Source of the DNA: a virus
Strand: one strand, 5' to 3'
Virus record (IMG/VR): IMGVR_UViG_3300042987_003650
Coordinates: 1 to 28,458 of that record
Length of the DNA: 28,458 nt
The translations under genes were made by a program, and so were the position numbers. Under the pieces are notes generated by a model. That model was not told where the DNA came from and did not search any database. It saw nothing but the letters and a program-made list of their open reading frames with translations. Position 1 is the stretch's first letter; every line of letters starts with the position of its first letter. Below, one piece after another: positions 1,571-27,260 of this stretch.

Positions 1571-1579
1571 CCAATCCAG

Positions 1580-1608
1580 TGTAAATTATGGCGCCAATTT
1601 AATATGAT
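1580..1608 (+). promoter_or_regulatory. promoter TGTAAA-N17-TATGAT, leaderless type
   Basis: TGTAAA (1580-1585), 17 bases, TATGAT (1603-1608), then 6 bases to ATG 1615. The spacing is identical to at least eight other sites in this window. Transcription should start at or within a base or two of the ATG. Confidence 0.65.
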
Positions 1609-4122: not shown

Positions 4123-4151
4123 GCGTGACTTGGTAATATTTTATGATGTTG

Positions 4152-4180
4152 TGCAAAGTTTGTAGACAAAGAGTTATACT
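4152..4180 (+). promoter_or_regulatory. promoter TGCAAA-N17-TATACT, leaderless type
   Basis: TGCAAA (4152-4157), 17 bases, TATACT (4175-4180), 6 bases, ATG 4187. Same boxes and spacer as at 22703 and 27232, which makes it one of the clearest examples. Confidence 0.75.
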
Positions 4181-4813: not shown

Positions 4814-4823
4814 AATTAGGCTG

Positions 4824-4852
4824 TGTAATCTCGACAAAATGCAAGATAGGAT
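4824..4852 (+). promoter_or_regulatory. promoter TGTAAT-N17-TAGGAT, leaderless type
   Basis: TGTAAT (4824-4829), 17 bases, TAGGAT (4847-4852), 6 bases, ATG 4859. It fills most of the 45-base gap after the previous stop. Confidence 0.65.
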
Positions 4853-7221: not shown

Positions 7222-7418
7222 AACGGAGGATCTACTGCGTACCACGCGTTGGCTCCACTATATTATGCGCAGGTGAAATCCCCTAGGATCACGGGGTCAG
7301 TAACCACGAGGCCGGTACGACCTGAAAGATGGGGGTCCGGCCTCACTCTTTGTTTCCATAGAATATTCGAAAAAATAATCAAAGGGTTTACACGTTTCGC
7401 ATGTGTGATTAATCCATG
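7222..7418 (+). other. non-coding spacer with a second strong hairpin
   Basis: No convincing gene is seen here. CTGCG and CGCAG flank a segment at about 7232-7273. Further on, GAGGCCGG (7308-7315) pairs perfectly with CCGGCCTC (7337-7344), followed by ACTCTTTGTTT, a terminator-like end. The spacer might hold a short structured RNA ending at about 7357. The open frame 7249-7449 begins with TTG, lacks a ribosome site and is not accepted. Confidence 0.35.
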
Positions 7419-7447
7419 TGTAAATCTAATAATCAAGGTGATAGGTT
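7419..7447 (+). promoter_or_regulatory. promoter TGTAAA-N17-TAGGTT, leaderless type
   Basis: TGTAAA (7419-7424), 17 bases, TAGGTT (7442-7447), 6 bases, ATG 7454. Confidence 0.65.
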
Positions 7448-7786: not shown

Positions 7787-7787
7787 G

Positions 7788-7816
7788 TGCAAACTCTCCT
7801 TCCGTCATGGTAGGGT
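7788..7816 (+). promoter_or_regulatory. promoter TGCAAA-N17-TAGGGT, leaderless type
   Basis: TGCAAA (7788-7793) begins two bases after the previous TGA. TAGGGT (7811-7816) follows after 17 bases and is 6 bases from ATG 7823. TATAAC at 7816-7821 is nearer the consensus -10, but would give a 22-base spacer. Confidence 0.65.
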
Positions 7817-11210: not shown

Positions 11211-11211
11211 G

Positions 11212-11240
11212 TGCAAATTGATCTCTCGCCGGTGTAGAAT
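11212..11240 (+). promoter_or_regulatory. promoter TGCAAA-N17-TAGAAT with short leader
   Basis: TGCAAA (11212-11217) starts two bases after the previous TGA. TAGAAT (11235-11240) follows after 17 bases. The leader is about 20 bases and contains CGGAG before ATG 11268. Confidence 0.65.
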
Positions 11241-12892: not shown

Positions 12893-12893
12893 G

Positions 12894-12922
12894 TGCAATC
12901 TCGCTTAGACAAGCAATACAAT
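12894..12922 (+). promoter_or_regulatory. promoter TGCAAT-N17-TACAAT, leaderless type
   Basis: TGCAAT (12894-12899), 17 bases, TACAAT (12917-12922), 6 bases, ATG 12929. The promoter occupies the whole gap between two genes. Confidence 0.68.
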
Positions 12923-13501: not shown

Positions 13502-13569
13502 TTCGGGTGAGGTTTCCACCATCCCACTCCCACGATTAATCCTGAAAGATCGAATGTGATCTCTCCCAG

Positions 13570-13598
13570 TGCAAAGTTGGGGCGAGATGTTATATCCT
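13570..13598 (+). promoter_or_regulatory. promoter TGCAAA-N17-TATCCT with leader
   Basis: TGCAAA (13570-13575), 17 bases, TATCCT (13593-13598), then about 36 bases with GAGGT before ATG 13635. Confidence 0.58.
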
Positions 13599-15174: not shown

Positions 15175-15182
15175 AGCAATCG

Positions 15183-15211
15183 TGCAAAGTTTCACCTCCT
15201 CGATTTATAAT
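15183..15211 (+). promoter_or_regulatory. promoter TGCAAA-N17-TATAAT, leaderless type
   Basis: TGCAAA (15183-15188), 17 bases, a perfect TATAAT (15206-15211), 7 bases, ATG 15219. The upstream in-frame ATG 15210 overlaps the -10 box and cannot be the start. Confidence 0.75.
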
Positions 15212-18137: not shown

Positions 18138-18138
18138 G

Positions 18139-18166
18139 TGTAACTTTTTTAATTTCTGTGTATGAT
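18139..18166 (+). promoter_or_regulatory. promoter TGTAAC-N16-TATGAT, leaderless type
   Basis: TGTAAC (18139-18144) begins two bases after the previous TAA. TATGAT (18161-18166) follows after 16 bases and is 7 bases from ATG 18174. Confidence 0.6.
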
Positions 18167-20534: not shown

Positions 20535-20823
20535 GCTCAGAGAATTAATTCAAAGGGTCCTTGCTGAAGGACCTTCAGGTCCCGGTATTTCTGCTGACCC
20601 TACGGACGTAAAAGGATTTTATCCCTATGAAATCGATCGCGGCACAGACATATTCGGATACTGGTATAAATCTCCAGGTGACAAGGGTAGTAACGACCCC
20701 ATGCGTCCAGAAGACGCCGCGGAATACATTGGCTTTAAGACTAAGGGGGCAACTCCGGAAGACGCCGCAGCGGAGGCTGCTCCCGAAGTAGAAGAAGTTC
20801 CTGCTGAACCCTCTGAAGTGTAA
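20515..20823 (+). CDS. protein with MKI-LR-I-R helix, 102 aa
   Basis: The head MKIRLSELRELIQRVLAEG again matches the 20352 and 10737 proteins. The body is Gly/Pro/Asp-rich with FYPYEIDRGTDIFGYWYK, and ends in an Ala/Glu/Pro repeat-like tail. Two adjacent genes with the same head and different bodies suggest duplication of the head or domain shuffling. Confidence 0.7.
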   Translation: MKIRLSELRELIQRVLAEGPSGPGISADPTDVKGFYPYEIDRGTDIFGYWYKSPGDKGSNDPMRPEDAAEYIGFKTKGATPEDAAAEAAPEVEEVPAEPSEV

Positions 20824-20847
20824 AGTTATATGCACATATTTTAATGT
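20819..20847 (+). promoter_or_regulatory. promoter TGTAAA-N17-TAATGT, leaderless type
   Basis: TGTAAA (20819-20824) contains the previous TAA stop. TAATGT (20842-20847) follows after 17 bases and is 6 bases from ATG 20854. Confidence 0.65.
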
Positions 20848-22585: not shown

Positions 22586-22702
22586 GATTCTTAAGTATTG
22601 AAGACGTACAAAATAAATTTGTACGCCCTTTCGAAACATCTTTAAATTAAAGTTTGTTATTGGAATTTTTCCATTAACTTTATCAATCTAATTCTCCTTC
22701 AG

Positions 22703-22731
22703 TGCAAAGATTAACTCAGAGTAGTTATACT
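22703..22731 (+). promoter_or_regulatory. promoter TGCAAA-N17-TATACT, leaderless type
   Basis: TGCAAA (22703-22708), 17 bases, TATACT (22726-22731), 8 bases, ATG 22740. Confidence 0.75.
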
Positions 22732-23947: not shown

Positions 23948-24766
23948 ATGTCTTCTAAAGTCGCAGCAAGCGATGCAGGTACGCTTAGCGCTTATCTAAA
24001 AGATCTAAGATCTCATCCTCAACTTAAGCATCCTGAAGTTGTTTCTCTCTTTCAGGCTTACGAAGCAGGAGGAACTGCAGGAGAAAGAGCACGAGCCAAG
24101 CTCGTTGAAAGCAACTTGCGCCTTGTAATCTCTATCGCAAAAAAGCAAAAAGGCCACAGTATTCCTCTAGAAGATCTCATCCAAGAAGGAAACCTCGGTC
24201 TTCTTAAGGCTATTGAGAGATTCGACTACAAGAAGGGCTTTCGTTTCTCGACGTATGCGACGTGGTGGATCAAGCAGGCAATCAGCCAGCATGTACTAAA
24301 GCATAAGAGAATGATTAGATTGCCTGCGCACGTTGCGGGAATTCAGAGAAAGCTTCTTCAAGAAACAGAAAAATTCAAAAAAATGACAGGTGAGGAGCCT
24401 ACTCAAGAAGAGCTTCGCTCTCTTGTTGATGCTTCTGAGACCATCATGAAGGCAACGATAGCATCGGGATATAATATTGTATCTCTTGATCAGACGTGGT
24501 CCGGCGGAGGAAATTCCACGACAGACACAAAGACTATCGGGGAAAGTCTTGAAGATTCAGATAAGAGAAAGGATCCTTTCTACAACGTTTCTTCTAAGGA
24601 GCTTATGGATGTTGTTCGACACGTTCTTTCTGGTCTGACAGAAAAAGAAGCGGCAATTCTGAAGCTTAGGTTTGGTCTTTTTGACGAAGAAGAAGTAGAG
24701 AGAGAAGACTATTCTCTCACGAAAGAAGAGGCAGAGGACCTGTCCAATGGAATCTCTCTCAAATGA
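23948..24766 (+). CDS. sigma70-family factor lacking region 4.2, 272 aa
   Basis: Region 1.2-like AYLKDLRSHPQL is at residues 15-26. Region 2 (about 50-127) is excellent: KLVESNLRLVISIAKK, LEDLIQEGNLGLLKAIERFD, and region 2.3-2.4 GFRFSTYATWWIKQAISQ, which melts and binds the -10 box. Region 3 (about 128-215) follows, then region 4.1 VLSGLTEKEAAILKLRFGL (226-244). The frame then gives an acidic stretch and stops at NGISLK, so the region 4.2 helix-turn-helix that binds the -35 box is missing. No other frame supplies it. A separate protein at 24969 has a 4.2-like HTH. AAAGG lies before ATG 23948. Confidence 0.85.
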   Translation: MSSKVAASDAGTLSAYLKDLRSHPQLKHPEVVSLFQAYEAGGTAGERARAKLVESNLRLVISIAKKQKGHSIPLEDLIQEGNLGLLKAIERFDYKKGFRFSTYATWWIKQAISQHVLKHKRMIRLPAHVAGIQRKLLQETEKFKKMTGEEPTQEELRSLVDASETIMKATIASGYNIVSLDQTWSGGGNSTTDTKTIGESLEDSDKRKDPFYNVSSKELMDVVRHVLSGLTEKEAAILKLRFGLFDEEEVEREDYSLTKEEAEDLSNGISLK

Positions 24767-24972
24767 TTGACACAGTATTGAACTGTCTAGAGCTTGTCAT
24801 ATTGCTAGTTTTGTCGATTCAATACATGGGACTGAAGAAAGAAATTTCCTTTCTTGACCAAAAAATATCTAATCTTATGGAACACCAATCTCATGATTCT
24901 TCTGAAAGAGATCTAAACAGACGACTCACAGAAATACAAAATATGAGATTCTCAAGCATGGTAAGAAAATGA
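24763..24972 (+). CDS. membrane-anchored coiled-coil protein, 69 aa
   Basis: ATGA overlap with the sigma gene. Residues 3-22 are hydrophobic (VLNCLELVILLVLSIQYMG). The rest, KKEISFLDQKISNLMEHQ onward, looks coiled-coil. It also overlaps the next gene by ATGA, so sigma factor, membrane protein and HTH protein are translationally linked. An anchor or anti-sigma-like role is possible but unsupported. Confidence 0.62.
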   Translation: MIDTVLNCLELVILLVLSIQYMGLKKEISFLDQKISNLMEHQSHDSSERDLNRRLTEIQNMRFSSMVRK

Positions 24973-25253
24973 AAAAAATTAAAGAGGGCAAGTCTGTCTA
25001 TGCAACTGTAACCTTCGACGAAGGAGTAAATTACAGAGAAATAGCTGAGATGATGACGGAGATAGGGTTCAAAATGAATCATTCATCCGCCAGAAATTAT
25101 GTCTTGCGAGTGATGAGAAAGTTTGCAGAGGCGCTGTGTGAAAATTGGGATATAGATTTACCTGAACACAAGCTTGATAAGATTGTAAAGTCTCCCGGAT
25201 TTCAGAAGGCCATCTGCGATCTTCTTCAAAGGCTAGAAGAGGAAGAGGAATAA
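24969..25253 (+). CDS. small HTH protein resembling sigma region 4.2, 94 aa
   Basis: Residues about 21-53 (NYREIAEMMTEIG, then SSARNYVLRVMRKFAEAL) form a helix-turn-helix laid out like sigma region 4.2: 'EIA' first helix, 'S-AR-Y' recognition helix, long basic last helix. The C-terminal part is helical and ends in five Glu. The gene is two places downstream of a sigma factor that lacks this very part and overlaps its neighbour by ATGA. It may act as the separate -35-binding piece; alternatives are a plain repressor or activator. Confidence 0.7.
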   Translation: MKKIKEGKSVYATVTFDEGVNYREIAEMMTEIGFKMNHSSARNYVLRVMRKFAEALCENWDIDLPEHKLDKIVKSPGFQKAICDLLQRLEEEEE

Positions 25254-26511: not shown

Positions 26512-27231
26512 ATGATTCAAAACGTTGAATTAAAAGACACGAAGAAAGTTATATCTCGTCTCGTGCTGCAAAAGATCTTGCAGCACGAGGTTTGTAAGTT
26601 TCTCGACAAGGCAAGATATGAAGATGTCAATAGAATTTTTCTATCTAGTGAGCCTGACAGGGAGCTTAGACTAGATTTTAAGCTGCAAAAATCTATTCAG
26701 GACAAATACTATTCAGGCGTCGCAGATTTGACAATCCGCTGGTTGATTGACGATACGGAGCAGGTAGATCCAGAAGGAAATGTCTGGCAGACATGTACGC
26801 TGAAACTGATATCCGGCGTTTCGTCTCGGTGGAACACTAACGTTTATGAAATGCTCGAGAGAGCGGAATGTTTAAATGCGCTTGCATCTCTTCTTTTAGA
26901 GCTTCATGAGATGGCAGGAAATCCTATTCAGATTCAGATCCTCAGCAATGATCAGAGAATTGCACGTGATCTTAAGAGAAAGTATGATGAGACATGTGGA
27001 GAGATATCCCGGCTCATCCGCTGGAGTGCACCAGAGCTTCGTCGAGGATTACGCGCAGGCGGCAAAGCACGCACCTTTCAGCGAGAGATCTTCACGAAGA
27101 TCAAAGTGGATCCTGGACGCTACGAGTTCGAAGTGAACGATGGTTCCAACAGAAACCCGAAGTACAAGAAATACTCCGTCACGATCCCGGAGAATTCCGC
27201 CTATCTCTGTGCGATCAAGCGCGTCTCGTAG
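26512..27231 (+). CDS. hypothetical protein, 239 aa
   Basis: ATG 26512 is one base after the previous stop. ATG 26491 would overlap that gene. The N-terminal 160 residues are mixed and helical (VISRLVLQKILQHEVCKF, ECLNALASLLLELHEMAG). The last 80 are basic and polar (AGGKARTFQREIFTKI; NPKYKKYSVTIP). No motif is recognised. Its stop is immediately followed by the ligase promoter. Confidence 0.68.
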   Translation: MIQNVELKDTKKVISRLVLQKILQHEVCKFLDKARYEDVNRIFLSSEPDRELRLDFKLQKSIQDKYYSGVADLTIRWLIDDTEQVDPEGNVWQTCTLKLISGVSSRWNTNVYEMLERAECLNALASLLLELHEMAGNPIQIQILSNDQRIARDLKRKYDETCGEISRLIRWSAPELRRGLRAGGKARTFQREIFTKIKVDPGRYEFEVNDGSNRNPKYKKYSVTIPENSAYLCAIKRVS

Positions 27232-27260
27232 TGCAAAGTCACACTCAAAGAGAGTATACT
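27232..27260 (+). promoter_or_regulatory. promoter TGCAAA-N17-TATACT, leaderless type
   Basis: TGCAAA (27232-27237) directly follows the TAG stop. TATACT (27255-27260) follows after 17 bases and is 7 bases from ATG 27268. This is an excellent example. Confidence 0.75.

Follow-up and report, generated by a model that had tools for sequence, protein, structure and literature searches.

The 28,458-nt stretch of viral DNA analysed here (IMG/VR record IMGVR_UViG_3300042987_003650, positions 1 to 28,458; hereafter the window) encodes a sigma70-family protein that ends between regions 4.1 and 4.2, and in larger relatives of this virus a genuine region 4.2 is encoded by a separate gene, that of a Cys-cluster protein which we call B. 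Textbook sigma factors have regions 4.1 and 4.2 folded together as a single compact domain; the sigma anatomy found here and the promoter class that accompanies it in the window, GTGNAA-N18-TAnnnT, are real, conserved and unusual. The original prediction, which proposed a sigma factor cut exactly at this point with region 4.2 supplied by another gene, is borne out through B and not through the protein it had named, the 94-residue product of a gene lying two genes downstream of sigma (protein A); as to which gene carries region 4.2, it was probably wrong. The coordinates of sigma, its two coupled neighbours and the promoters are collected in Table 1.

Table 1. Genes of the sigma locus and promoters of the GTGNAA class in the window.
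Position	Strand	Feature	Remarks
23948..24766	+	sigma70-family protein, 272 aa, regions 1.2 to 4.1	Pfam, PHROG, homologues
24763..24972	+	69-aa protein between sigma and A	ATGA overlaps both sides
24969..25253	+	protein A, 94 aa, HTH-like core	partner gene of sigma (putative role)
1579..1608	+	promoter GTGTAA-18-TATGAT	6 nt before ATG 1615
4151..4180	+	promoter GTGCAA-18-TATACT	6 nt before ATG 4187
4823..4852	+	promoter GTGTAA-18-TAGGAT	6 nt before ATG 4859
7418..7447	+	promoter GTGTAA-18-TAGGTT	6 nt before ATG 7454
7787..7816	+	promoter GTGCAA-18-TAGGGT	6 nt before ATG 7823
11211..11240	+	promoter GTGCAA-18-TAGAAT	~53-nt leader before ATG 11294
12893..12922	+	promoter GTGCAA-18-TACAAT	6 nt before ATG 12929
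13569..13598	+	promoter GTGCAA-18-TATCCT	next long-ORF ATG 36 nt downstream
15182..15211	+	promoter GTGCAA-18-TATAAT	7 nt before ATG 15219
18138..18166	+	promoter-like GTGTAA-17-TATGAT	7 nt before ATG 18174; weaker, spacer 17
20818..20847	+	promoter GTGTAA-18-TAATGT	6 nt before ATG 20854
22702..22731	+	promoter GTGCAA-18-TATACT	8 nt before ATG 22740 (dCMP deaminase-like)
27231..27260	+	promoter GTGCAA-18-TATACT	7 nt before ATG 27268 (ATP-dependent DNA ligase)

The domain content of the window's sigma agrees with what had been predicted, namely regions 1.2 to 4.1 and an end before region 4.2. A strong Pfam match to Sigma70_r2 (E 1e-22) establishes the presence of region 2, responsible for -10 recognition and core binding. 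The Sigma70_r4 match covers model positions 1-18 of 50 only, as it does in relatives, and in the same search no region 4.2 helix-turn-helix (HTH) was detected within the sigma polypeptide of the window or of its relatives. The protein belongs to phrog_351, an RpoD-like phage family, and aligns with positions 477-694 of 928; regions 1.2 and 3 are visible solely via this alignment, the corresponding Pfam models (r1.2 and r3) giving no significant match. Its C-terminus (...SGLTEKEAAILKLRFGLFDEEEVEREDYSLTKEEAEDLSNGISLK, followed by the stop) consists of region 4.1 and a short tail, and in most homologues a conserved tail of the pattern Y-x-[IL]-[TS]-x-E-E-...-G-x-x-L-[TRK] replaces region 4.2. By eye, this tail would correspond approximately to the first HTH helix and the turn, minus the recognition helix. 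Downstream, sigma overlaps the 69-aa ORF by ATGA, and this ORF overlaps the gene of A in the same way.

The cut between regions 4.1 and 4.2 is a property of a whole family of proteins. Homologues in IMG/VR occupy more than 80 loci and comprise at least 61 distinct sigmas of 253-280 aa, which share a common end point (one being cut by a contig end), and the truncation is kept at 32-36% sigma identity, in G011, G033, G035 and a 306-kb contig in a bacterial MAG. Truncation requires two label changes on the tree of sigmas, with which a single origin may be compatible. The shared end point, together with the constant presence of A downstream, indicates a conserved split and not a broken gene. That sigma is decaying or mis-assembled and its HTH neighbour coincidental is ruled out by the common end, the conserved tail and the conserved neighbour, which recur in at least 61 different sigmas recovered from many separate assemblies; nothing in favour of this explanation came to light, and we give it practically no weight. 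The uncultured giant phage group with the truncated sigma is widespread.

Protein B, of ~90 residues, was found via a Sigma70_r4 search of the larger relatives. The first finds lie on seven contigs; their scores exceed the curated cut-off, and the matches start at model positions 12-21 and reach positions 49-50. Invariant cysteines (C..C..C..NC) are combined in B with a true sigma HTH (TLQxIGxIYGLTRMRICQIEK); all aligned members match Sigma70_r4 (30/30), the B profile finds SigA/RpoD region 4.2 among PDB entries (E 5e-7), and hhalign against RpoD region 4.2 gives E 4e-14. Within phrog_351, B spans positions 687-726, starting where the span of the truncated sigma ends. Among the 15 contigs with the truncated sigma that reach 130 kb or more, 14 also encode B, tens of kb away from the sigma gene, the exception being a 216-kb contig (G008) in which sigma and A are present and B is absent. 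Small contigs with the truncated sigma mostly miss B, as expected for fragments. B was not seen in the nearest relatives of the window, whose contigs are all at most 74 kb, and the 28 kb of the window do not extend far enough to reveal it; the window's own virus presumably carries B. In the isolated phages searched, B was not found.

Our preferred explanation, held with a little less than even confidence, is that B supplies the sigma core with its region 4.2 in trans, A being an obligate cofactor. Homology to region 4.2, the complementary phrog_351 span and the co-occurrence on large contigs support B in this role, whereas its lack of linkage to sigma, compared with the constant linkage of A, and the one large contig without B weigh against it. 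B could instead be a stand-alone regulator or a partner of a gp55-like sigma encoded on these contigs (see below). In RpoD, E585 and R588 have been tied to -33 specificity (PMC2613000). Compared with the RpoD recognition helix (TRERIRQ), that of B (TRMRICQ) keeps R584 and has M in place of E585 and C in place of R588, and the -35 box, when written as TGNAAA with a 17-bp spacer, has an unconstrained base at -33. The fit between the changed residues of B and this free base is suggestive only.

Protein A is the constant companion of the truncated sigma. A homologue lies downstream of sigma at every sigma locus examined, typically at a distance of 190-590 nt and directly adjacent in diverged lineages (10-35 nt), so that the predicted coupling of a 94-aa HTH gene to sigma holds, both by the ATGA overlaps and across all loci, although the identity of its product as region 4.2 finds no support in homology. 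The HTH-like core of A (NYREIA..M...G..MNHSSARNYVLRVMRKF) is nearly invariant across lineages, an alignment of 21 sequences contains 20 invariant columns, and an alignment-based AF2 prediction yields four helices with a pLDDT of 86. A match of A to Sigma70_r4, which the original prediction had put forward for checking, did not appear in profile searches: none of the 21 family members matches any Sigma70_r4 model, the profile-profile comparison of A with RpoD region 4 (hhalign) is not significant, neither A nor its family significantly matches a PDB sigma structure, Pfam and PHROG yield no match for A, and sigma-4 structures are absent among the matches of an AlphaFold/Foldseek search. Descent of A from region 4.2 is thus unsupported, since none of these searches revealed any sigma-4 similarity. 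A also has no homology to B, and no relatives of A were found in the genome_contigs or isolated-phages collections.

A failed profile match does not, however, amount to absence of the domain, as CBB-like jumbo phages illustrate. The sigmas of CBB, XbC2, phiKp21 and SE_PL carry a C-terminal long-turn HTH without significant Pfam match, which by its position must be their region 4.2; it sits inside sigma and yet misses the canonical 4.2 model as well. Compared with this CBB-type 4.2 by hhalign, A reaches E 0.05, which is not significant, though suggestive by eye; A might represent a relative of this non-canonical region 4.2 that has become detached. The main rival to our preferred explanation, which we hold conceivable though less probable, is therefore that A itself is the -35 reader, its long-turn HTH docking on region 4.1 or the beta-flap and contacting GTGNAA while B serves another purpose. 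Such a role would agree with the operon linkage of A to sigma, which holds in all lineages, even where the two genes nearly abut, with the parallel between its near-invariant core and the invariant -35 box of the main clade, and with the capacity of a diverged region 4.2 to escape searches that also miss the CBB-type HTH. The -35 element of CBB and GAP32 promoters, TGAAACG (PMC5259590), is close to GTGNAA, and A is more diverged in G035, G031 and G011, where the promoter spacing seems shifted by one while the recognition helix of B is unchanged. Against A as the reader stand the lack of detectable homology to sigma region 4 or to the CBB-type 4.2, the Foldseek result, and the existence in B of a genuine region 4.2 complementary to the truncation.

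The protein encoded between sigma and A has a hydrophobic N-terminus (a probable single transmembrane segment) and the C-terminal motif DLN.RL..(L/I)Q.M(R/K)FS. In the main clade, 50 of the 54 distinct sigma-A spacers contain an ORF of 65-149 aa, and those inspected mostly have this layout, ending in RL..LQ.MRFS. The 69-aa hydrophobic protein could be a membrane tether or an anti-sigma.

The promoters of the window had been described as combining a normal -10 box with an unusual -35 box, and our screens confirm this. TGCAAA-17-TAnnnT occurs at eight plus-strand sites of the window, and the extended pattern GTGNAA-N18-TAnnnT-N6..8-ATG was observed 10 times compared with 0.01 in shuffles, with none on the minus strand of the window. 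An unbiased hexamer-by-spacer screen of related loci returned GTGCAA at spacer 18 (TGCAAA at spacer 17) as the top combination, TGCAAA at spacer 17 being counted 34 times versus 0-5 at any other spacer. The class recurs genome-wide in the main clade: the peak of GTGNAA at spacer 18 is also present in the sampled DNA of most large main-clade relatives, in which no TTGACA peak at spacer 17 was found, and in 800 kb of eight relatives 38 sites combine spacer 18 with 6 nt from the -10 box to ATG, most cells of the scan holding 0-2. In G031, G035 and G011, where the spacing appears displaced, the promoters are less clear, as they are in a second, more diverged lineage (G033, TMED69). The hexamer screen of related loci also brought up a recurring element, TAAATTATCG, ~12-17 nt upstream of TATAAT-like -10 boxes, which may be the promoter of one conserved gene in close relatives.

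The position of these promoters relative to the genes they serve is constrained as well. The -10 box lies 6-8 nt, usually 6 nt, before the ATG, leaving no room for a ribosome-binding site. Transcription normally starts ~6-7 nt past the -10 box, and the mRNAs should therefore be leaderless. From this we infer a phage-wide set of leaderless mRNAs, predicted to start at the ATG, that originate from GTGNAA promoters. Among the genes placed behind such promoters are those of a DNA ligase and a dCMP deaminase-like protein, as well as a PolIII-like gene whose name is based solely on its sequence; immediately ahead of the capsid gene, no promoter of the class was detected. The regulon looks like a middle-type one.

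This gene content also bears on a further possibility, an unlikely one in our judgement, in which A is no sigma part but acts as an activator or coactivator of the MotA/gp33 type, the sigma core uses the -10 box only, and GTGNAA is a site at which A (or B) stabilises the complex. T4 middle genes are driven by MotA/AsiA, and the presence of DNA-metabolism genes (ligase, deaminase, PolIII-like) in the regulon is reminiscent of them; an HTH-like core without sigma homology would also suit an activator. However, A shows no match to MotA, AsiA or the gp33 family (phrog_254), and pairwise BLASTP against T4 gp33 is empty. A search with the T4 gp33 family, in which the controls gave no signal either, carries no weight in this respect. 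Moreover, the spacer and the distance to the start match a sigma -35 element in their rigidity, and a -35 box is absent from T4 late promoters.

Returning to the preferred explanation, trans-supply of region 4.2 by B, we propose the following mechanism. The sigma core (regions 1.2-4.1) would bind host RNA polymerase and melt the -10 box, with its region 4.1 docking near the beta-flap, while B, through its Cys cluster and sigma 4.2 HTH, would supply the lost -35-reading region in trans. A, always made beside sigma, would anchor, position or gate the complex. The assembled holoenzyme would read GTGNAA-N18-TAnnnT and start on the ATG or within a base or two of it, giving rise to leaderless mRNAs, including those of DNA-metabolism genes, whereas late genes would be served by the separate gp55-like sigma. 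We infer both that the sigma core, A and B associate physically and which of them touches the -35 box. According to work cited in PMC2613000, the rigid spacer dependence of sigma70 needs regions 2 and 4 to be linked, so that the -35 reader would probably be tethered to the sigma core or the flap. The more encompassing picture of a three-part sigma factor, composed of a core of regions 1.2-4.1, a zinc-type B and an obligate A, with a new ATG-start promoter class and a leaderless regulon, is put forward more tentatively. If true, rigid spacing with region 4.2 on another polypeptide would test what sets the distance between the -35 and -10 boxes, a separate region 4.2 would constitute a swappable -35 reader, and a large leaderless gene set from one promoter class would allow leaderless initiation to be studied as a whole programme and not case by case.

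Several known systems share elements of this arrangement. In SigO/RsoA of B. subtilis, promoter-reading domains encoded by separate genes must act together, as is predicted for the present sigma; its split, however, falls between sigma-2 and sigma-4, whereas here sigma-2 to region 4.1 remain together and the cut lies inside sigma-4, the 4.2 homologue is encoded away from the sigma gene, and A adds a third conserved protein. The late transcription system of T4, gp55 with gp33 (and gp45), likewise represents a sigma without the usual region 4, working with a small HTH-type partner and the host polymerase in a phage with a T4-type capsid. In contrast to that system, the truncated sigma here falls in phrog_351 and not in the gp55 family, a gp55-like sigma being encoded separately, a -35 box stands at a constant spacing in the promoters, and A does not match the gp33 family. 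T4 MotA/AsiA also replaces normal -35 reading for middle genes by a phage DNA-binding protein, but does so by remodelling the host sigma, whereas the present phages bring a truncated sigma of their own.

Among jumbo phages, those like CBB, GAP32 and Rak2 come close in having an RpoD-like sigma and a -35 box similar to GTGNAA, combined in CBB and GAP32 with a normal -10 box (PMC5259590), but region 4 of their sigmas, with its non-canonical long-turn HTH, is still fused. According to a review (PMC7824862), jumbo phages of the gp23 type have either single-HTH 'minimal' or RpoD-like sigma factors, and B could be of the broad kind represented by the 'minimal' sigmas of group 2; a sigma truncated after region 4.1, its complementarity with B, and A are not described in the passages considered. 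The sigma of Vibrio phage VAP7 and its neighbouring 'XRE regulator' were rejected as a parallel, region 4 being intact and the neighbour unlike A.

By their gene content, the relatives carrying the truncated sigma are T4-superfamily jumbo phages; a Gp23 capsid protein is encoded by 11 of 12, whereas the 28-kb window itself does not extend far enough for this feature to be seen. RNA polymerase beta was found in none of 12 viral contigs of relatives, which must therefore use the host polymerase. A separate gp55-like sigma (phrog_234) is present in 11 of 12 large relatives (G001-G007, G031-G035); it has about 250-310 aa and its own C-terminal HTH-like stretch, and its gene lies roughly 25-45 kb from that of B, two of these distances assuming a circular contig. 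Three records from human faeces filed as 'Bacteriophage sp.' (MT835471, MT839976, MT837549) were discarded as relatives because they encode a full-length RpoD beside housekeeping-type genes, and they are probably contaminating bacterial DNA. Conversely, NHDW01000006.1 (305,838 bp), filed under a Methylococcaceae MAG (TMED69), encodes the truncated sigma, A and B, and is thus probably a jumbo phage binned with bacteria.
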